45,819 nucleotides of DNA from Helicobacteraceae bacterium (lineage in GTDB: Bacteria > Campylobacterota > Campylobacteria > Campylobacterales > Sulfurimonadaceae), in NCBI GenBank assembly GCA_027023805.1, contig JALVUF010000015.1:1-45819 (forward strand), in the 5' to 3' direction. Under the pieces are notes generated by a model. It had not been told where the DNA came from, did not search any database, and worked only from the letters and a program-made list of their open reading frames with translations. The translations under genes were made by a program, and so were the position numbers. Shown here in pieces: positions 9,804-18,581 of the stretch (positions are counted from its first letter, which is position 1; the number at the start of each line of letters is the position of its first letter).

Positions 9804-10534
9804 TCCTCAAACCAATTAAGCTCATCTCTTAATTTAACTACTTCGCCTATGACTATAAGTGCCGGAGTAGGTAGTTTTTTAGCTTCTTTTGGTATATTTT
9901 GTAAAGTTGAGACAATTGTCTTTTGTTCTTTTGTTGTTCCTTTGCTTATAACTGCAATTGGACAATCTTTTGACTTTCCTATACTTATCAATTTTTTACA
10001 AATTGTTTGAATGTTATGAAGACCCATAAGAAAGATTATTGTTTCATTATTTTTAAATGACTTCCAATCTATTTGAGAATCTGTTTTGTTTGGTGTTTCA
10101 TGTCCTGTTACCACTCTAAAAGAGACGGCAACTCCTCTGCTAGTAACTGGGATACCTGCGTAAGCCGGTACGCTAATTGCAGAAGTAATGCCCGGTATAA
10201 TCTCAAAAGATACTCCCTTATTCTTTAAATACATGCCCTCTTCGCCACCACGACCAAAGACAAAAGGATCACCGCCTTTTAACCTAACTACAACATCATA
10301 TTTTAGCGCTTTTTGGTATATAGTCTCATTTATCTCATCTTGTGGCAATATATGTCTTCCATCTTCTTTACCTACATAAACAAACTCACAATCTTTTTTT
10401 GCCTCTTTTAAAATCTCAGGATTTGCAAGCCTGTCATATATAATAACATCAGCAATTTTAACAACTCGAAGTGCTTTTAAGGTAAGCAGTTCCATATCTC
10501 CGGGACCGGCCCCCGTCAAATACACTTGACCCAT
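9800..10534 (-). CDS. cobA: Uroporphyrinogen-III C-methyltransferase (SUMT)
   Basis: Transfers two methyl groups from SAM to uroporphyrinogen III to give precorrin-2, the first step towards siroheme and heme d1 (NirE role). The 244-aa protein shows all the family blocks: VYLTGAGPGD at the start, YDRL near 34, RLKGGDPFVFGRGGEE near 84-99, PGITSAISVPAYAGIPVT near 119-136, and the TGHE segment. It is the last gene of the nor-nir operon; its start overlaps the nirJ stop in a TAATG arrangement, so it is likely dedicated to heme d1. Function is secure; the choice between the symbols cobA and nirE is context only. Confidence 0.94.
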   Translation of the reverse strand: MGQVYLTGAGPGDMELLTLKALRVVKIADVIIYDRLANPEILKEAKKDCEFVYVGKEDGRHILPQDEINETIYQKALKYDVVVRLKGGDPFVFGRGGEEGMYLKNKGVSFEIIPGITSAISVPAYAGIPVTSRGVAVSFRVVTGHETPNKTDSQIDWKSFKNNETIIFLMGLHNIQTICKKLISIGKSKDCPIAVISKGTTKEQKTIVSTLQNIPKEAKKLPTPALIVIGEVVKLRDELNWFED

Positions 10535-11658
10535 TATATTTGTCCTCTTTGCTGCTCATTTAAATAGCATGACGGGTCTTCTGCCCATAAATCATTATAT
10601 AATGCGTATGCTCTGCTTCTGCTTCCACCGTTACAAATATGTTTCACTCCGCATGTGGAGCATTTCCCGCTAATTTCTCTTGGATGCTGTCTCAATCTGG
10701 TTAGTATTTCATTATTCTTATCTAGCCAAATACTATCAAAACTCTTTTCATTTATATCTCCAACTGTAAACGGAAAAAATGGATCAGGCTTAACTTTTCC
10801 TAAGAAATCAATATTTCCGAGTCTATTTCCTGCGCTATTTCCTCCCCATGCTATCAATCTTTGTAACATCTGCTCTTTTAGTTTTGGATACTTTAGACTA
10901 AATTTTTCAAGCAAAATAATAGCATCCATCTCCATATTGCCTGTTACTATATCTATATCTTTACCCTCTTCTTCATATTTAAGTGCCTTATCTATGATAA
11001 AATTAACAAATTCCAATCTTTTCTCTTTGCTGATATCAATTTTAAGATTCTCAAGTCCTCTACCTGAATACACTAAATGAGATAAATATATTTTATTAAC
11101 ATTCAATTCTTCTGCTAATTCAAAAATATCGTAAAAACTATCCTCAGTCTCTTTTGTCATAGTAAATCTAATGCCGGCATTACCGCCATTTTGTTGGATT
11201 AATTTAATAGCACCAACACTTTTATCAAATGCACCATCTAATCCCCTAAAATTATCATGAACCTTGCCAATTCCATCTATACTTATACCTATATAATCAA
11301 ATATCTGGATAATTTTGTTAACATTTTTTTCATTAATATACAAACCGTTTGTTGAGAGGTAAGTCATGATAGACTTTTCCCTCATTGCGTTTGCAATTTT
11401 AAAAATATCTTTTCTTATAAGAGGTTCTCCACCACTGAAAATAACAAATTTAACACCGGCTTTTTTCAAATCCTTTATAGAATCCAATATAAATTCAGTT
11501 GTTAAAAAATCCTGCGAATTGGGATCAGCATAAGAATAGCAATGGTGGCATGTGAGGTTACATCTGTTTGTAAAATTCCATATCACTATCGCACCACTTA
11601 ATATTCTACTTTTTTTATTATTAACAGTAGAATGAATAAGATTAGAAACTCTTAACAT
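10534..11658 (-). CDS. nirJ: Heme d1 biosynthesis radical SAM protein NirJ
   Basis: Radical SAM enzyme that converts the propionate side chains of didecarboxysiroheme towards the oxo groups of heme d1. The 374-aa protein has the CxxxCxxC motif at C33, C37 and C40 (NRCNLTCHHC), the SGGEPL segment near 85, and a C-terminal cysteine set C333, C336, C342 and C364, consistent with a second cluster as in SPASM-type proteins. Its start lies inside the end of nirF (17-base overlap) with AAAGATAA upstream. Position next to nirF and nirS separates it from the related heme b decarboxylase AhbD and from peptide-modifying radical SAM enzymes. Confidence 0.92.
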   Translation of the reverse strand: MLRVSNLIHSTVNNKKSRILSGAIVIWNFTNRCNLTCHHCYSYADPNSQDFLTTEFILDSIKDLKKAGVKFVIFSGGEPLIRKDIFKIANAMREKSIMTYLSTNGLYINEKNVNKIIQIFDYIGISIDGIGKVHDNFRGLDGAFDKSVGAIKLIQQNGGNAGIRFTMTKETEDSFYDIFELAEELNVNKIYLSHLVYSGRGLENLKIDISKEKRLEFVNFIIDKALKYEEEGKDIDIVTGNMEMDAIILLEKFSLKYPKLKEQMLQRLIAWGGNSAGNRLGNIDFLGKVKPDPFFPFTVGDINEKSFDSIWLDKNNEILTRLRQHPREISGKCSTCGVKHICNGGSRSRAYALYNDLWAEDPSCYLNEQQRGQI

Positions 11659-12745
11659 ATTTATCTTTCATCTTGTATATAAAAATACCTGATGGTTTAG
11701 GGACCGGCCATGCAAACTTTTTCCACCAGCCATGTGTCTTTATGCCAAGCACTTCATTTGCTCCGTTTACAGAAACATATAAATATTTACCGCTAGTTGA
11801 CCACCTGACATGTAAAACCATGCCTTTGAATTTAAAATTTTTAATTATTTTTAATGTTTTTGTATCAATTATCTGTACTCTTGGAAAATCTTTACCGCTA
11901 AAAGTAACAGCAAGATATTTCTTATTTGGGCTTAACGACGTAAAAACAGGGTTGCCGACCACGTCAATAGCTTTTATAAGTTTAAATTTATGGCTAAATG
12001 CAAATACTTTTCTTGCACCCACGGCCGGTATAAAAAAGTAACCTTTAGAAACACTCCAAAACCCAAAATGAGGAACCTTTAACACTCTATCTCTTTTGCC
12101 GAGATTAAGAGGTACAGTTTTATATTTCATAGTCCTTAAATTTAACACACCTATAAATGGAGAATTAAAAAAACCGGAAACATAAAGATTTTTATCTATT
12201 AGCGCATCAAAAGGAACTAAACCTACGTGCTTAAATTTCTTATATACTACAAAGTGCGGCTTTCTTGCCTTTGGTTGAGTATTTTTCATCACCCAAATCT
12301 CATCAGTATCCATGCACTCAAAAACAAGATAATTTTTATACAGTTTTATACCTACATTTCTACTGTTTGTTTTAATACTCTCTATAGGCTTTAAATTTCT
12401 GCTAACAATCTCAACGGTTTTATTCCCATAATTTGCAACCGCAACAAAATTTCTACCTATTATAAAACCGATTGCACTTGGACTGGTTCTATACTCTTTT
12501 TCTATTTTATCTGTAATTGGATTGAATTTAATTATATAACCATCTCTAGTTATTACATATCCATCCCTACCTTTAAACTTTACAACTGCATGGTTAAAAT
12601 TATGCATATGTTTTATGGTATCAACTAGTAGATGCTGTTCAATTACAGCAAGTGCTGAATTTTCTCTCTCGACTACAAAAATCTTATCTTGCGCATTTAA
12701 AAGAGTAACTATAAAAACCAAACATAATAGAAGTATTTTTTTCAT
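11642..12745 (-). CDS. nirF: Heme d1 biosynthesis protein NirF
   Basis: Periplasmic beta-propeller related to the d1 domain of NirS, needed for a late step of heme d1 formation. The 367-aa protein starts with a signal peptide (MKKILLLCLVFIVTLLNA) and then shows repeated blades (VERENSALAVIEQ, YVITRDGYIIKFNP, SLSPNKKYLAVTFSG, STSGKYLYVSVNG). The HNFNHAVVKF block carries histidines at the place where an essential one is known in this family. It overlaps nirC upstream by 4 bases and nirJ downstream by 17, so translation is probably coupled. The C-terminus has the Trp-rich GWWKKFAWPVPKPSGIF end. Confidence 0.92.
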   Translation of the reverse strand: MKKILLLCLVFIVTLLNAQDKIFVVERENSALAVIEQHLLVDTIKHMHNFNHAVVKFKGRDGYVITRDGYIIKFNPITDKIEKEYRTSPSAIGFIIGRNFVAVANYGNKTVEIVSRNLKPIESIKTNSRNVGIKLYKNYLVFECMDTDEIWVMKNTQPKARKPHFVVYKKFKHVGLVPFDALIDKNLYVSGFFNSPFIGVLNLRTMKYKTVPLNLGKRDRVLKVPHFGFWSVSKGYFFIPAVGARKVFAFSHKFKLIKAIDVVGNPVFTSLSPNKKYLAVTFSGKDFPRVQIIDTKTLKIIKNFKFKGMVLHVRWSTSGKYLYVSVNGANEVLGIKTHGWWKKFAWPVPKPSGIFIYKMKDKYVKSF

Positions 12746-13059
12746 TTTTTATCCTTATAACTTTGTATATATGTAACAATTGCATTAAGCTCACTTGCAT
12801 TTAAATCACTAAATGAGGGCATAGAGTTAATTTTATATCCTAATATTTTATATGATGACTCAGGATTAAGAATTTGGGCAAGCATTTGAGCTCTTGTGCG
12901 ATGATTGGCGATGAATCTAAAAGATGGTGCAAAAGCTTGAGCGGTCTGATGATGACAGCCCCAGCAATATGTTTGAAAAACTTTGATTGCCAAACTATCT
13001 TTTGCACTCAAACCAATACCTATGAGCAATAGTGCGATTATTAGGCTTTTACTTTTCAT
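12742..13059 (-). CDS. nirC: NirC-like periplasmic mono-heme cytochrome c
   Basis: Small class I cytochrome c. From the ATG at 13059, which has AAGGA at the right distance, the protein has 105 aa; a longer frame from a TTG at 13074 would run through that ribosome site and is less likely. It has a signal peptide (about 1-19), a single CWGCH heme motif at C32, C35 and H36, and NSMPSF near residue 80 supplying a probable axial Met. In other denitrifiers NirC donates electrons to NirS or acts in its maturation. Position between nirS and nirF supports the name; it could also be a general donor. Confidence 0.85.
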   Translation of the reverse strand: MKSKSLIIALLLIGIGLSAKDSLAIKVFQTYCWGCHHQTAQAFAPSFRFIANHRTRAQMLAQILNPESSYKILGYKINSMPSFSDLNASELNAIVTYIQSYKDKK

Positions 13060-13095
13060 ATTTTTATCCTTCAACGCTTTTATACTATTTATAGG

Positions 13096-13157
13096 TATTA
13101 TTATACTATATTTATTATTAAAAATTAATTTTATATAAAAAATATAGTATAATAATA
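13096..13157. repeat. 18-bp perfect inverted repeat between nirS and nirC
   Basis: TATTATTATACTATATTT (13096-13113) is the exact reverse complement of 13140-13157, with a 26-base loop. It lies in the only sizeable gap in the nirS-nirF stretch and could give an mRNA hairpin just upstream of nirC, limiting read-through or protecting the nirS transcript. One arm also contains TATACT on the minus strand, so a weak promoter for nirC is an alternative. Confidence 0.5.
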
Positions 13158-13164
13158 TTTATTA

Positions 13165-13191
13165 ATTTATTCGTCATAATGACGAATAAAT
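13165..13191 (-). terminator. 13-bp stem-loop just after nirS (partial terminator or mRNA stabiliser)
   Basis: ATTTATTCGTCAT (13165-13177) and its exact reverse complement (13179-13191) flank a single A; the structure begins 5 bases after the nirS stop. On the minus strand it is followed by TAATAAATATT, not a clean T run. It is therefore more likely an attenuator or a 3' stabilising hairpin than a full terminator. Confidence 0.4.
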
Positions 13192-13196
13192 ATTAT

Positions 13197-14906
13197 TTAA
13201 GCACCAGGTACTTTTAGTCTGTGTGAAATAGAATATGTAAAAGTAGGCGTTGTCAAGTTATAGATATACTTGATAAATCTTCCAGTTTTAGCATTATAGA
13301 TGCCAATTCGTCCATTTTTATTCCATTCACTAATAGTTGTCCATTTTCCAAAATTCATAGGTTCTGCATGCAACAATCTTGGCTGAACAGGATGAGCAAG
13401 TCTTGGTCCATGTGCCGCAGTATAAGGTACTATAAACTCTTTTGAAAGCTTAGAGCGAACCTCTTTATGCATAATATTTTTATACTGGGTCGCATTCCAA
13501 GTTTGTAAAATCTTGCCGGTATGTGCGTCAATCAAATGACCTTTATACTTACCTACTTTAATAATTCTGTCAATTTTTAAAGTTTGCTTGTTAATCAAAT
13601 AAACCCTATTATAGACTAATGCGCTCCCAATAACATCATCTGCCCAGATATATGGGGTACCGTCGCCAGTTCCTACAAACAAGCCGCCACCTGCTGTTTT
13701 CACGCTTGCTACAACTTCATTCTCCATATTCCATATAACAACATTGCCTTCATTAATGCTCATAGTAGCATTTAACTGACCATACCTTTTATTATACCAA
13801 GATGCACCTTGTCCTGGATGTGGCTTAGAGTCTGGTCCTGTATATATTTTAGCAGCAAGCTTCAATGTTTTTAAATCAATAACACCTATCAAATTACTCA
13901 TCTGTGATGCAATATATACAAATCTACCACGATCTTTTCCCATGTTTTCAAAACCATCATGCAATATCTTACCTATGTTTGGAATATCGGCTATGATTGG
14001 AAAACCTGGTTTATTATAATCAACTATATAAACATGTCCGCCATCTTTTAAAGCAAAGATAAAATACGGTGCATAAGGCGTTTGAATAACCATGGCAACT
14101 CTACTTGGACCAAGCTGTCCTGTAGTGTTAATAACGCTAGGAGTCGGATAAACTTTTAACGGCTCTAACGTATGAGCATTAAGTAAAACTGCACCACCGG
14201 GCGAATAATTACCGGTCATTACATATTTTCCATTGGGACTAACTGCTATACCTCTGCTTGATGTTCCAACTGTAACACTAGCAAGGGCAGGCTCTCCAGG
14301 AGCATTTAAATCAAACATTGTAAGTCTTCCGGATCGACTGATACAATATGCATATCTAGGCATACGCTTGTTGACTTGACAAATATGAATAGCATATCCG
14401 GCTTTATGCCTACTTAACATCTTACCTGATGTACCGTCATAAAAATCTACTAAAGACGCATCTCTTTCAACCCCAATTTGTATATCTCTTACATTTTTGA
14501 CATCAGCAGGTGTTAGATATTTGTAATATAACTTTTTAGCATCTGCTAATTTCTTCCAAGTTTTTTTAACTTTTACAAGTGAAAGTTTAGGCGTGTAGAT
14601 ACTTTTCCAATCAATCAGCCATTCCACCATACCGGAAGCTTCATTTCTTGAGAACATATGCCCCCAAGCCGGCATCGCAGTACCCGCTTTTCCGCGTAAA
14701 ATAGTATTTACAAGCATTTGCTTGTTTATTTTCTTTAAGATCTGAGGCTTCAAAGTAGCTCCAACACCACCTTGATGCGCACTCCCGTGACAACCCTGAC
14801 ATTCCTGCTTATATACTTTGGCATACTTCATGGTAGCATTTGCTTGTGTTAAACCGACAAGCATTACAAAACCGGCAATAAAGCCAACTGTGTTAACTAA
14901 TTTCAT
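13197..14906 (-). CDS. nirS: Cytochrome cd1 nitrite reductase NirS
   Basis: Periplasmic enzyme reducing nitrite to NO. The start is taken as the ATG at 14906, preceded by AGGGAGA, giving 569 aa; a longer frame to 14933 adds nine hydrophilic residues ahead of the signal peptide and lacks a good ribosome site. A signal peptide (1-24) is followed by a cytochrome c domain with CQGCH (C36, C39, H40) and then an eight-blade heme d1 propeller (about 130-569). The HPGQGASW and AAHGPRLAHP blocks and the TPTFTYS end match NirS. NirN is the main alternative, but it is usually shorter and occurs beside a nirS; only one copy is present here. Confidence 0.93.
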   Translation of the reverse strand: MKLVNTVGFIAGFVMLVGLTQANATMKYAKVYKQECQGCHGSAHQGGVGATLKPQILKKINKQMLVNTILRGKAGTAMPAWGHMFSRNEASGMVEWLIDWKSIYTPKLSLVKVKKTWKKLADAKKLYYKYLTPADVKNVRDIQIGVERDASLVDFYDGTSGKMLSRHKAGYAIHICQVNKRMPRYAYCISRSGRLTMFDLNAPGEPALASVTVGTSSRGIAVSPNGKYVMTGNYSPGGAVLLNAHTLEPLKVYPTPSVINTTGQLGPSRVAMVIQTPYAPYFIFALKDGGHVYIVDYNKPGFPIIADIPNIGKILHDGFENMGKDRGRFVYIASQMSNLIGVIDLKTLKLAAKIYTGPDSKPHPGQGASWYNKRYGQLNATMSINEGNVVIWNMENEVVASVKTAGGGLFVGTGDGTPYIWADDVIGSALVYNRVYLINKQTLKIDRIIKVGKYKGHLIDAHTGKILQTWNATQYKNIMHKEVRSKLSKEFIVPYTAAHGPRLAHPVQPRLLHAEPMNFGKWTTISEWNKNGRIGIYNAKTGRFIKYIYNLTTPTFTYSISHRLKVPGA

Positions 14907-15096
14907 ATTGTCTCCCTTATTCTCTGATGCCATACACTATCGTAACAAATCCTATCATTGCCATAAAGACTAGAGTCCTTGCAATCCCCTAAAGCTTCAA
15001 AGTAAGCAAAGCACTTCAGGAGGTAACAAGAGTAATCTTTTTATAAAAGTGTATAAGGTCAGTTGCTATTTAAATATTTCTAGCTAATAAGCACCT

Positions 15097-15276
15097 TTAT
15101 TCTCCGTCATTCTCCTGTTTGTTTTTCAATCTCTTTTTTTCTTGAAAATATATAAAGAACATTGGAAGAACAATCAATCCATGCAAGAAAAACGATAAGG
15201 TCAGAGGACCTTCGTTTAACCATCCAAAAAAGCTCCAATTTACATCTGTAAACGGCTGAAACAGTACGTGATACAT
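15097..15276 (-). CDS. Small single-helix membrane protein encoded after norB, 59 aa
   Basis: A 59-codon frame from ATG at 15276 to a TAA at 15099-15097, with a strong AAGGAGA 5 bases before the start and only 12 bases after the norB stop. The protein begins MYHVLFQPFTDVNWSFFGWL, has one likely helix (about residues 23-45, LTLSFFLHGLIVLPMFFIYF) and ends in a charged tail (QEKKRLKNKQENDGE). No family was recognised. Its size, single helix and place in the norCB operon suggest a small accessory subunit of the NO reductase, like small oxidase subunits of other heme-copper enzymes; that role is inference. Confidence 0.75.
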   Translation of the reverse strand: MYHVLFQPFTDVNWSFFGWLNEGPLTLSFFLHGLIVLPMFFIYFQEKKRLKNKQENDGE

Positions 15277-15288
15277 CTTATCTCCTTT

Positions 15289-16716
15289 TTAATATACATT
15301 TTGAGGATTTCTACCAATCGTCCACAAATCTTTAACTAAATATATAAATCCAATTGTCATGACTATACCCATAAAAAATCTCCAGTCCATAGCCTGCGCC
15401 ATCCAAACTTCATTTTGAGCAACAAAATAAGCGCTCCAAGTTCCACCAAGCTGTGCCCTTTCAATCATCACCTGCTCATATCCGGCAATAGTTAATGCCA
15501 CCGTCATACCAAGCATTCCAAAAGAGAGTAAAAATATTGCCATTTTAGAAGCAAACGTTGCTCTTAATTTTTTAATACCGTTTTTACCCTGGATAGCCAT
15601 ATAAAACATAGCTATAAGTATAGTAGCATATGCTCCAAAAAATGCCAGGTGACCATGTGCTGCCGTAAATTGCGTACCGTGCGTATAAATATTTACCTGT
15701 GGCAATGTATGAAAAAATCCCCAAACACCGGCACCTAAAAAGTTTCCAAAACCATTTATAACCAGCCAAACTAAGGCCGGGGTATTGTTAGAAGTAACAT
15801 CTTTTTCGCCTTCACCCATCCTCTCACCTTTATCCTTGCCCCAATCATAAAGAACATGAACAAACATGCCGATAAGCGGTACAGGCTCAAGTGAGCTAAA
15901 CAAAGCTCCAATTTCCCACCAATACTCAGGTGTTCCTATCCAAAAATAATGATGTCCTAAGCCCAATATACCAGAACCAAACAACATAGCAACTTCTATC
16001 CATAACCACATCTCAACTATTTGTCTTTTTGCACCTACTATTTTAATAAGAGCGTAAGCTGCAAAAGCACCAACTAAAACTTCCCAAGTCGCTTCAACCC
16101 AAAGGTGTATAACCCACCACCACCAATACTGATCCATAGCAATATTATCAGTATAAAACATTCCTGCAAGATACAAGCCGGCCAATGCTATTAAATCTGC
16201 TAAAATAACTGTTATAACTCCGGTTCTTCTTCCCTTAATCGCAGTTAAAAATGTATTTATAACGAAACCTACTACAACCACGACTATGCCGATATCTGCC
16301 CATCTAGGAGCTTCTAAATACTCTCTACCTTCGGTTATAAACCAAATCGTACTTGTTTTTGCCGGTCCTATCTGAATAAAAAGAAAAACTAAAACAACAA
16401 TAGCAACAGCAATAGTCAGCACCCAAAATAAAATTTTGGCTATACCAATACCAACTGTCTCTATACCTGTTTCTTCGGGAAGTAAATAATACACAGAGCC
16501 GATGATAGCATACACCATCCAAACGACTAATGCGTTAATATGTATCATTCTAGCAATTGAAAAATCTAAAACATCATATAAAAATGATGGGTAAATAAAC
16601 TGCACAGCAGCTACCAGACCCAGCAAAAGCTGAGCACCAAACAATATAACAGCAACAGTAAAGTACCAGCTCGCTAATTTTTGCGATTCATACTTAAAGC
16701 TATTTTGTCTCTGCAT
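15289..16716 (-). CDS. norB: Nitric oxide reductase large subunit NorB
   Basis: Catalytic subunit of cytochrome c-type NO reductase, reducing 2 NO to N2O at a heme b3/non-heme iron centre. The start is placed at the ATG at 16716, preceded by AAGGAGG, inside the end of norC (17-base overlap), giving 475 aa; a longer frame to 16758 lacks such a site. About 12 hydrophobic helices are visible. Signature blocks include MIHINALVVWM near 54, WWWVIHLWVEATWEV (conserved His and Glu), LGLGHHYFWIGTPEYWWEIG and HGTQFTAAHGHLAFFG with the C-terminal heme histidines. There is no N-terminal quinol-oxidase extension, so it is the cNOR and not the qNOR type. Confidence 0.96.
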   Translation of the reverse strand: MQRQNSFKYESQKLASWYFTVAVILFGAQLLLGLVAAVQFIYPSFLYDVLDFSIARMIHINALVVWMVYAIIGSVYYLLPEETGIETVGIGIAKILFWVLTIAVAIVVLVFLFIQIGPAKTSTIWFITEGREYLEAPRWADIGIVVVVVGFVINTFLTAIKGRRTGVITVILADLIALAGLYLAGMFYTDNIAMDQYWWWWVIHLWVEATWEVLVGAFAAYALIKIVGAKRQIVEMWLWIEVAMLFGSGILGLGHHYFWIGTPEYWWEIGALFSSLEPVPLIGMFVHVLYDWGKDKGERMGEGEKDVTSNNTPALVWLVINGFGNFLGAGVWGFFHTLPQVNIYTHGTQFTAAHGHLAFFGAYATILIAMFYMAIQGKNGIKKLRATFASKMAIFLLSFGMLGMTVALTIAGYEQVMIERAQLGGTWSAYFVAQNEVWMAQAMDWRFFMGIVMTIGFIYLVKDLWTIGRNPQNVY

Positions 16717-17398
16717 AATTTGCCTCCTTAATTTTTCCAAAACCTCTAGGGAATCCATTTGTGTCGATTGTAGCCATCTGCTTTAAGAATGCTACAAGAC
16801 CTTTAGCTTCTCTAGCCGTTATATGAAGATTTGGCATCCTCCTTGCATGCATAGGATATCTTCCCGGATGCTGCAAAAATGCAGCCATTGCCTCTGCTCT
16901 TGAGTGTGTTCCGGTAATTGCCTGCATTGGACCGTTTTTACCCCATGCAGGATCCAGCCATGCCTTTGTAAGATCAGGAGCATAATAACCACCGTTTCCA
17001 AGCAATGTATGACAATCCATACAGTTTTTTGATTGCTCTGCTAATTTACCTAAATTTACAAGAGCATCTGCTTCTTTTTGAGTATAGTTATCTCTTCCAA
17101 AAAACTTTTGCTTAATCGTAAATAAAGAATTACCATTCGCATCGCTACCACCTATAGTAGGTACTTCAAGACCTCTTTTTGCATTCATTTTGTAGCCAAT
17201 CTTGTAGTTAATAACAGTTGGGGACGGTACTCTCTTGTCGATATGAGCATTTATATCTTTTTGATTACCCATTCTTATTTGCCCCATCGTATCAAATGTT
17301 AGCCATATTAACAAGACTGCGGCAACACCTGTAACCCAAGCGGCAGATCTTTGCCAAAAACGATTATCTGTCCATACAGAAACTTTTCTTTTAGACAT
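16700..17398 (-). CDS. norC: Nitric oxide reductase cytochrome c subunit NorC (long form)
   Basis: Membrane-anchored cytochrome c that feeds electrons to NorB. The start is the ATG at 17398, preceded by AGGAGAG; the frame extends 7 codons further upstream without a ribosome site. The protein has 232 aa: one N-terminal helix (about 14-35), a long periplasmic linker, and the heme motif CMDCH at C126, C129 and H130, followed by the NorC-typical LLGNGGYYAPDL and a MPNL axial-Met candidate. Usual NorC is near 150 aa with the heme motif near residue 60, so about 65 residues are inserted between helix and heme domain. It overlaps norB by 17 bases. Confidence 0.93.
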   Translation of the reverse strand: MSKRKVSVWTDNRFWQRSAAWVTGVAAVLLIWLTFDTMGQIRMGNQKDINAHIDKRVPSPTVINYKIGYKMNAKRGLEVPTIGGSDANGNSLFTIKQKFFGRDNYTQKEADALVNLGKLAEQSKNCMDCHTLLGNGGYYAPDLTKAWLDPAWGKNGPMQAITGTHSRAEAMAAFLQHPGRYPMHARRMPNLHITAREAKGLVAFLKQMATIDTNGFPRGFGKIKEANYAETK

Positions 17399-17741
17399 TT
17401 TTACTCTCCTTTTTTTCATCTTTATATCTTTCTTCAGATTTACTTATAATCCGATAGTAAATATAAGGCATCATCAAGTAAGCTATCATTACAATCATCA
17501 TCGCTTTAAATGTAAACGGCTTAGAATGAATCTTCACTCCTAAATAAAACATACTGTAAACTTGCAAGCCCCAAAAGAGAAATGCTAAAAGTATATATCC
17601 CCTTTGTAGTTTTTTTAATTTTACAAGCGTTACAGTCATCGCATAAAATGCGCCAAAAATAATAACAAATGCTCCAGATAAAAAAACTCCCAGAAAATCA
17701 CTTGATGCTATTATAGGTCTAACAAGCGTTGGTGTTAACAT
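17391..17741 (-). CDS. Three-helix membrane protein heading the nor-nir operon, 116 aa
   Basis: No family recognised. Three hydrophobic helices are seen at about 13-38, 48-68 and 78-97, followed by a charged tail (SKSEERYKDEKKESKNV) that should lie in the cytoplasm. The start has a perfect AAGGAGG 5 bases upstream, the strongest ribosome site in this part. Its 3' end overlaps the norC start by 8 bases, so it is translated with norC. It may assist NO reductase assembly (NorE/NorF-like role) or NO-linked respiration; that rests on position only. Confidence 0.72.
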   Translation of the reverse strand: MLTPTLVRPIIASSDFLGVFLSGAFVIIFGAFYAMTVTLVKLKKLQRGYILLAFLFWGLQVYSMFYLGVKIHSKPFTFKAMMIVMIAYLMMPYIYYRIISKSEERYKDEKKESKNV

Positions 17742-17769
17742 TTAAACCTCCTTAGCAAATCCACCTACG

Positions 17770-17778
17770 AGTATAATA
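17770..17778 (-). promoter_or_regulatory. Candidate -10 region of the nor-nir operon
   Basis: The minus strand reads TATTATACT across 17778-17770, containing the overlapping hexamers TATTAT and TATACT, about 30 bases before the first gene of the operon. A direct repeat of TTGTT spaced 10 bases apart lies upstream (within 17840-17857). No FNR-type dyad was found in this gap. Confidence 0.35.
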
Positions 17779-17870
17779 TCATAAAATAACGATAAATAGC
17801 ATCATAAAACTATAATAATGTGTAAAATTATTAAAATGTAACAATCTGAAACAATTTAATTTTATTAAGT

Positions 17871-17876
17871 TATAAT
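17871..17876 (+). promoter_or_regulatory. Candidate -10 box for the small membrane protein / nsrR-like gene
   Basis: TATAAT in the context AAGTTATAATTTATT. A transcript would start near 17883, which favours the downstream ATG (17933) over the TTG at 17885 for the next gene. Confidence 0.35.
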
Positions 17877-17932
17877 TTATTTAATTGCCAGTAAGATTAG
17901 CAAAATCTAAAACACAAGGATTATCAAAACAG

Positions 17933-18127
17933 ATGAGAAGTATAATGTTTGTCTTAATTTTTTCTATAGTCTTATTATTTTTCTTTATATTCCCATCTAT
18001 AAAGATTGTAGAGTTTTTTGATAAAGACGATAAATTAAGCGATTTTAATTATAATTTACTTACTGTTTTACTAACCATCTGCCTATCTTTAATGGGCGGT
18101 ATTTTTCTTGAATATTGGAAACTCTAA
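17933..18127 (+). CDS. Small two-helix membrane protein of unknown function, 64 aa
   Basis: No family recognised. Two hydrophobic helices (about residues 3-25 and 42-58) are joined by an acidic-basic loop (EFFDKDDKLSDFN). The frame is open back to a TTG at 17885 (80 aa), but that codon has no ribosome site and would sit at the predicted transcription start, so the ATG at 17933 is preferred; AAGGA lies 12 bases before it, slightly far. It precedes the Rrf2-type regulator by 40 bases and may share its promoter. Confidence 0.55.
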   Translation: MRSIMFVLIFSIVLLFFFIFPSIKIVEFFDKDDKLSDFNYNLLTVLLTICLSLMGGIFLEYWKL

Positions 18128-18167
18128 AAATAGTTAAAATATTTCATTTCATATTAAAGGTTTAATA

Positions 18168-18581
18168 ATGCAACTACATAATACTACGCAATATGCAATA
18201 AGAATTTTAAGCTATATAGCAAGTAAGGACAACGAATCTCTGTCCAATGCTACAGTTTTAGCCACTACATTAAATCTGCCTTATAAATTCTTAACAAAAA
18301 TTATGCGCGAACTAGTTGTAGCAGGATTAGTAAAATCAACTAGAGGTCGCGATGGAGGATATGTTTTAAATAAAAAAGCATCTGATATCAAATTAGTCGA
18401 AATATTGGAAATATTTAATGATATGTTAAATGATGAATATTGTGTATTAGGTATTGGGGTTTGTGACAACAACAATAAATGTGCGTTACACGATCAATGG
18501 AGCCAACCTAAAACTTTATTGCAGGATATGTTTAAAAATACGTCTTTACAAGATCTCATAGGTAGAGGAAGTAAATTTTAA
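18168..18581 (+). CDS. Rrf2-family Fe-S transcriptional regulator, NsrR-like
   Basis: The 137-aa protein has the Rrf2 winged-helix N-terminus (MQLHNTTQYAIRILSYIA, then LPYKFLTKIMRELVVAGLVKSTRGRDGGY at about 37-65) and a cluster-binding loop with C92, C99 and C105 (C-x6-C-x5-C), plus H108. Three cysteines of this layout bind [2Fe-2S] or [4Fe-4S] in IscR and NsrR; NsrR proteins sense NO. Its place beside the nor-nir operon promoter and upstream of a peroxidase and heme d1 genes makes an NO-sensing repressor the best guess. IscR is the alternative, but no isc genes are nearby. Confidence 0.85.
   Translation: MQLHNTTQYAIRILSYIASKDNESLSNATVLATTLNLPYKFLTKIMRELVVAGLVKSTRGRDGGYVLNKKASDIKLVEILEIFNDMLNDEYCVLGIGVCDNNNKCALHDQWSQPKTLLQDMFKNTSLQDLIGRGSKF

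Follow-up and report, generated by a model that had tools for sequence, protein, structure and literature searches.

The cytochrome c NO reductase (cNOR), which converts toxic NO into N2O, is a main biological source of this gas in denitrification; descriptions usually give it two subunits, NorB and NorC. In the stretch of DNA analysed here (the window, 45,819 nucleotides from a Helicobacteraceae bacterium) a frame of 59 codons is located between norB and nirS. What is its product, and to which of its neighbours does it belong? The initial annotation took it for an unrecognised membrane protein, possibly a tiny extra subunit of cNOR.

The frame, here called small59, is present as claimed, on the minus strand, a point which the annotation had left unstated. 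It runs from the ATG at 15276 to 15097, comprises 59 codons and a TAA stop, and shares its strand with norB and nirS; read on the plus strand, this interval contains internal stops. The peptide is MYHVLFQPFTDVNWSFFGWLNEGPLTLSFFLHGLIVLPMFFIYFQEKKRLKNKQENDGE. The strong ribosome-binding site and the close spacing to norB were also correctly seen: AAGGAG occupies 15287-15282 and the ATG follows the norB stop after 12 bases. The genome has a single copy of small59. The features of the locus are collected in Table 1.

Table 1. Features of the small59 locus in the window.
Feature	Coordinates	Strand	Basis and remarks
small59, 59-aa single-helix membrane protein	15097..15276	minus	ORF, homologues, codon comparison, AlphaFold2
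AAGGAG ribosome-binding site of small59	15282..15287	minus	sequence inspection
norB, catalytic subunit of NorH-type cNOR	15289..16758	minus	COX1 Pfam match; 55% identical to Thermus NorB
norC, cytochrome c subunit	16700..17419	minus	Cytochrom_C match; first ATG; start at 17398 also possible
norH homologue (116 aa, three helices predicted)	17391..17741	minus	upstream of norC; profile match to Thermus NorH
nirS, cytochrome cd1 nitrite reductase	13197..14933	minus	Cytochrom_D1 match; first ATG; downstream of small59

AlphaFold2 (30 rows) predicts a short helix at residues 16-20 and a long one at 24-57, with a mean pLDDT of 83. The best hydrophobic 19-mer spans residues 25-43 and the tail abounds in K/R and D/E, which agrees with the one helix and charged tail noted earlier. 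D11, G23, P24, L27, L31, H32, P38, M39, Y43, E46, and K47 are invariant in 30 of 30 members, H32 being positioned at mid-helix. Among 45 rows, the part preceding the helix has on average 0.07 K/R and 2.0 acidic residues per protein, the part following it 4.0 and 3.0, respectively. Because K/R are concentrated after the helix, the positive-inside rule predicts an N-terminus outside and a C-terminus in the cytoplasm.

Searches with small59 in Pfam, NCBIfam, PHROGs, and, by sequence profile, the PDB returned nothing meaningful. The 30 members gave only weak, scattered Pfam matches (best E 0.0065) which do not qualify them as CcoQ/FixQ, and the peptide had zero matches in plasmid records. The open-access literature searched mentions neither small59 nor any small, or fourth, subunit of cNOR from this group. 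Thus, small59 is new in the sense that it is unnamed in the searched family libraries and literature, and the label "unrecognised" was justified. It escapes the libraries because it is so short.

A short frame which matches no family model might be a chance frame or a leader without protein function. The comparative data reduce the probability of this to practically nil. The single peptide was searched against 298 genomes of the phylum, for which the name Campylobacterota given in the initial annotation would fit. It strongly matches 43 of them (at E ≤ 1.5e-13 and, the window's own excluded, 51-73% identity), and a wide gap separates these from the next match at E 6.7e-4; in total 152 of the 298 match at E ≤ 1, those beyond the strong 43 being weak. 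Profile A2, built from 30 members partly drawn from the same 298 genomes, likewise finds 43 of 298 (weakest E 5.1e-24). Genomes are shared between the peptide, profile, and NorB searches and the 60-genome search of relatives reported below. Most homologues possess the AAGGAG motif, with a gap from norB of 6-82 bases. Starts given as ATT or GTT are a script fall-back, the true ATG being the next codon; for the homologue in L020 the start given is TTG, but an ATG start exists 39 bases further on.

Selection at the protein level is evident. Codons were compared according to Nei-Gojobori for 45 small59 sequences, i.e., 990 pairs. The window and its nearest relative, L032, differ by pS 0.19 and pN 0.021, a ratio of 0.09. 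The ratio is 0.035 for L004/L006, and L049/L050 show zero amino-acid changes at pS 0.47. Over all pairs the median pS is 0.77 and the median pN 0.19, and not a single one of the 990 has pN equal to or above pS. In a few very close pairs (L010/L013/L014) the ratio is 0.23-0.47, resting on one or two changes. Lack of protein-level conservation in other norCB loci had been set beforehand as the finding that would refute the proposal; small59 survived this test. It is a real gene under purifying selection.

With which protein is small59 associated? The NorB query matches 57 of the 298 genomes at E ≤ 1e-40. Defined by E below 1e-200 and an identity of at least 64%, a window-type NorB is present in 44 genomes; 13 have a divergent NorB alone (30-42% identity). 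All 43 small59 genomes are within the 44, and the sole exception, G218, has a contig that ends inside norB. None of the 13 genomes with only a divergent NorB has small59. In 43 of 43 places small59 follows norB directly and on the same strand, as judged by eye from the listed places. The search of 60 genomes of relatives gave 25 window-type NorB places, small59 being present at 24; at the 25th, L055, norB is cut by the contig end. The divergent NorB loci L056-L060 and L063 are without small59.

A place between these two genes, norB and nirS, which small59 has in most loci including the window, would also suit a protein that serves NirS or links it at the membrane to NorB. We consider this very unlikely, as small59 stays beside norB irrespective of nirS. 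In most loci of the relatives the downstream nirS product is 52-69% identical to the window NirS. However, small59 is also kept in L010, L011, L013, L014, L022, L027, L030, and L052-L054, where NirS is only 28-30% identical, and in L017, L034, and L047, where no nirS was seen in the sequence examined. Because small59 persists where nirS differs or is not seen, and is absent at divergent NorB, it belongs, by its genomic neighbourhood, to norB and not to nirS. The loci with a distant-type nirS look as if nirS had been swapped and norB-small59 retained.

Outside the clade, 83 NorB loci were searched with the small59 profile; no member was detected, the best E being 0.51. In 50 NorB-bearing whole genomes from outside no credible homologue was found: matches at E ≤ 1 occur in 12 of the 50, and the best of them (E 0.006) contains three internal stops. 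These genomes represent 50 of the 80 outside NorB loci; the other 30 were searched within the locus only. The slot behind norB in 56 loci (L088-L143), some of which end too soon behind norB to judge, contains no family of small membrane ORFs resembling small59; it is occupied by NorH in L103 (Thermus), by a cytochrome c ORF in several loci, and by scattered hydrophobic ORFs without common sequence in a few. A quick maximum-likelihood tree was calculated for 129 NorB rows. In it a branch with support 99 separates the window's clade (45 rows, including L159 with its downstream end cut) from the rest. Thermaceae/Aquificota/Chloroflexota make up a second group and Pseudomonadota a third; the classical type is placed at a great distance. 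A single gain of small59 at the base of its NorB clade is the simplest account.

The host enzyme is a cNOR by its NorB His and Glu motif and its cytochrome c NorC. The HLWVEATWE columns, which we take to contain the conserved His and the active-site Glu, are invariant in the NorB alignment A1. The active-site Glu is given as a cNOR marker in PMC8756737. The gene content of 10534-18581 resembles the Thermus nic cluster. It comprises an Rrf2-like ORF (18168-18581, the label assigned by eye), norH, norC, norB, small59, nirS, a cytochrome c, a d1-type propeller, and a NirJ-like radical SAM protein. Between norH and the regulator-like gene an 80-aa hydrophobic ORF without convincing Pfam match lies on the plus strand (17885-18127).

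In Thermus the slot behind norB belongs to NorH. Bricio et al. reportedly described NorH in 2014 as a third cNOR subunit in Thermus and Aquificales. A figure legend names it as part of the Thermus cNOR (PMC5748679), and PMC5015936 likewise names it as a subunit, with mention of strain SG0.5JP17-16. The gene order in Thermus thermophilus SG0.5JP17-16 is norC-norB-[98-aa ORF]-nirS-radical SAM-cytochrome c, and an Rrf2 regulator adjoins norC. Is small59 then simply NorH, a small gene in the same slot of the order norC-norB-small gene-nirS? The shared place in the norCB cluster is indeed given. Yet NorH is characterized by about 100 aa and three helices, whereas small59 has 59 aa and one long helix. 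Furthermore, hhalign of the small59 family against Thermus NorH yields a probability of 0.06% with one column aligned, and the 98-aa NorH has its own homologue here, the 17391-17741 ORF. An identity of small59 with NorH is thus ruled out by sequence, and we assign it next to no probability.

The family of this ORF matches Thermus NorH in hhalign at 72% (E 3.3e-5). With a threshold of E below 1e-3 its profile finds 69 of the 83 NorB loci, and Thermus NorH itself matches seven further loci (L061, L062, L064, L065, L066, L070, L103); neither match was obtained in 7 of the 83 (L063, L094, L095, L119, L131, L134, L139). NorH-type cNORs extend well beyond Thermales and Aquificota. The norH gene follows norB in loci of Thermaceae, Aquificota, Chloroflexota, and Methylacidiphilum and precedes norC in those of Pseudomonadota and of the window's clade; in L121, L129, L130, and L135 Thermus NorH directly matches the ORF upstream of norC. 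Between Thermaceae/Aquificota and window-type loci norH has changed sides of norCB. The norH ORF is without convincing Pfam or NCBIfam model, its predicted structure (pLDDT 75) had zero matches at E ≤ 0.001 in a fold search, and the NorH profile zero matches among PDB sequences at E ≤ 1. Because a NorH homologue is separately encoded upstream of norC, small59 is, as far as sequence comparison goes, additional to NorH, a further (fourth) component.

That small59 occurs strictly with a single class of cNOR argues for a subunit or a dedicated factor; very probably, small59 is a dedicated part or helper of cNOR. We favour, with moderate confidence, a membrane-embedded accessory subunit of the clade's NorH-type cNOR, for which we infer physical binding, a docking site, and a stabilising role. 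The enzyme would then be composed of NorC, NorB, NorH, and small59. The extra-subunit proposal of the initial annotation is thus partly supported: it is the best reading of the one-to-one association with window-type NorB, and membership in the NorBC complex is what we infer. The NorH at 17391-17741 had been overlooked, so that small59 would be a fourth component and not NorH itself. On the other hand, a dedicated assembly factor predicts an identical genomic pattern, and closely related cNORs of other phyla, for which the searches gave no small59 homologue, function without it.

Such an assembly factor would bind NorB transiently and, for example, help to insert heme or non-heme iron into a cNOR which lacks the NorQ/NorD chaperone. 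In Paracoccus cNOR requires NorQD for its active-site iron (PMC13036017), which lends some appeal to the idea. NorQ is present in 6 of the 298 genomes (G000, G129, G176, G252, G285, G292), exactly those with a classical NorB of about 40% identity, so that 42 of the 44 window-type genomes are without NorQ at a cut-off of E ≤ 1e-30. The invariant H32 at mid-helix also fits. However, NorQ was found, within the stretch around norB, in only 1 of the 83 NorB loci, the classical control L063; the NorH-type cNOR loci of other phyla thus lack NorQ in this stretch and also lack small59. Therefore, the absence of NorQ does not require small59. Generally, where a single-helix protein is fixed one-to-one with an enzyme, it is more often a subunit. 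An assembly factor is a possibility to which we give a minor share of our confidence. Less probable still, and in our opinion improbable, is that in such a four-subunit enzyme small59, by its invariant mid-membrane His, participates directly in the delivery of protons, NO, or iron to the active site of NorB and together with NorH replaces the missing NorQD as iron-loading machinery. The window's own genome encodes one NorQ, 55% identical to Sagittula NorQ. It is located beside a VWA-type ORF (G000:C56:638-1393, L192), on a different contig from a second, 39% identical NorB (G000:C50:1279-2619).

Where might an accessory subunit dock? NorB columns were counted as clade-specific if conserved to 90% or more within the clade and shared to no more than 15% with either of two other clades. 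There are 24 such columns, and 13 of them are within residues 250-311. When columns were drawn at random from the conserved ones, 0.06% of 5000 draws reached this number in some stretch of 62 columns, a width picked after the data were seen; for the control clades Thermaceae/Aquificota and Pseudomonadota the test gave 74% and 74%. Clade-specific residues also mark phylogeny. NorB 250-311 is a candidate docking site for small59, a lead and not a proof. Tiny single-helix subunits stabilise other heme-copper and bd oxidases. By analogy, the small59 helix (about 24-44, N-terminus outside, basic tail inside) would pack against NorB, probably in contact with the helices around residues 250-311, and would stabilise this catalytic subunit.

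An additional protein that is fixed throughout a clade of denitrifiers would change the cNOR subunit list for structures, expression, and proteomics. For NorH-type cNORs without adjacent NorQ, the source of the active-site iron becomes a testable question.

Three sets of known proteins invite comparison. NorE and NorF, described in PMC13036017 as membrane proteins of unassigned function in norCBQDEF clusters, are like small59 small membrane proteins encoded with norCB. Yet their clusters contain NorQD, and the 30 small59 members match no Pfam family convincingly. NorH shares with small59 the small size, the membrane location, the seemingly joint transcription with norCB and, in Thermus, the slot behind norB; it differs by its 98-116 aa, three predicted helices, unrelated sequence and, here, its own ORF upstream of norC.

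Similar in kind are the single-helix accessory subunits CcoQ of cbb3, IIa of ba3, and CydX of bd. small59 departs from them in having no Pfam or PDB sequence match, an invariant motif with a mid-membrane His, and an NO reductase as host. It resembles them in its tiny length, its one transmembrane helix, and a gene which is tied to, and adjoins, that of the catalytic subunit.
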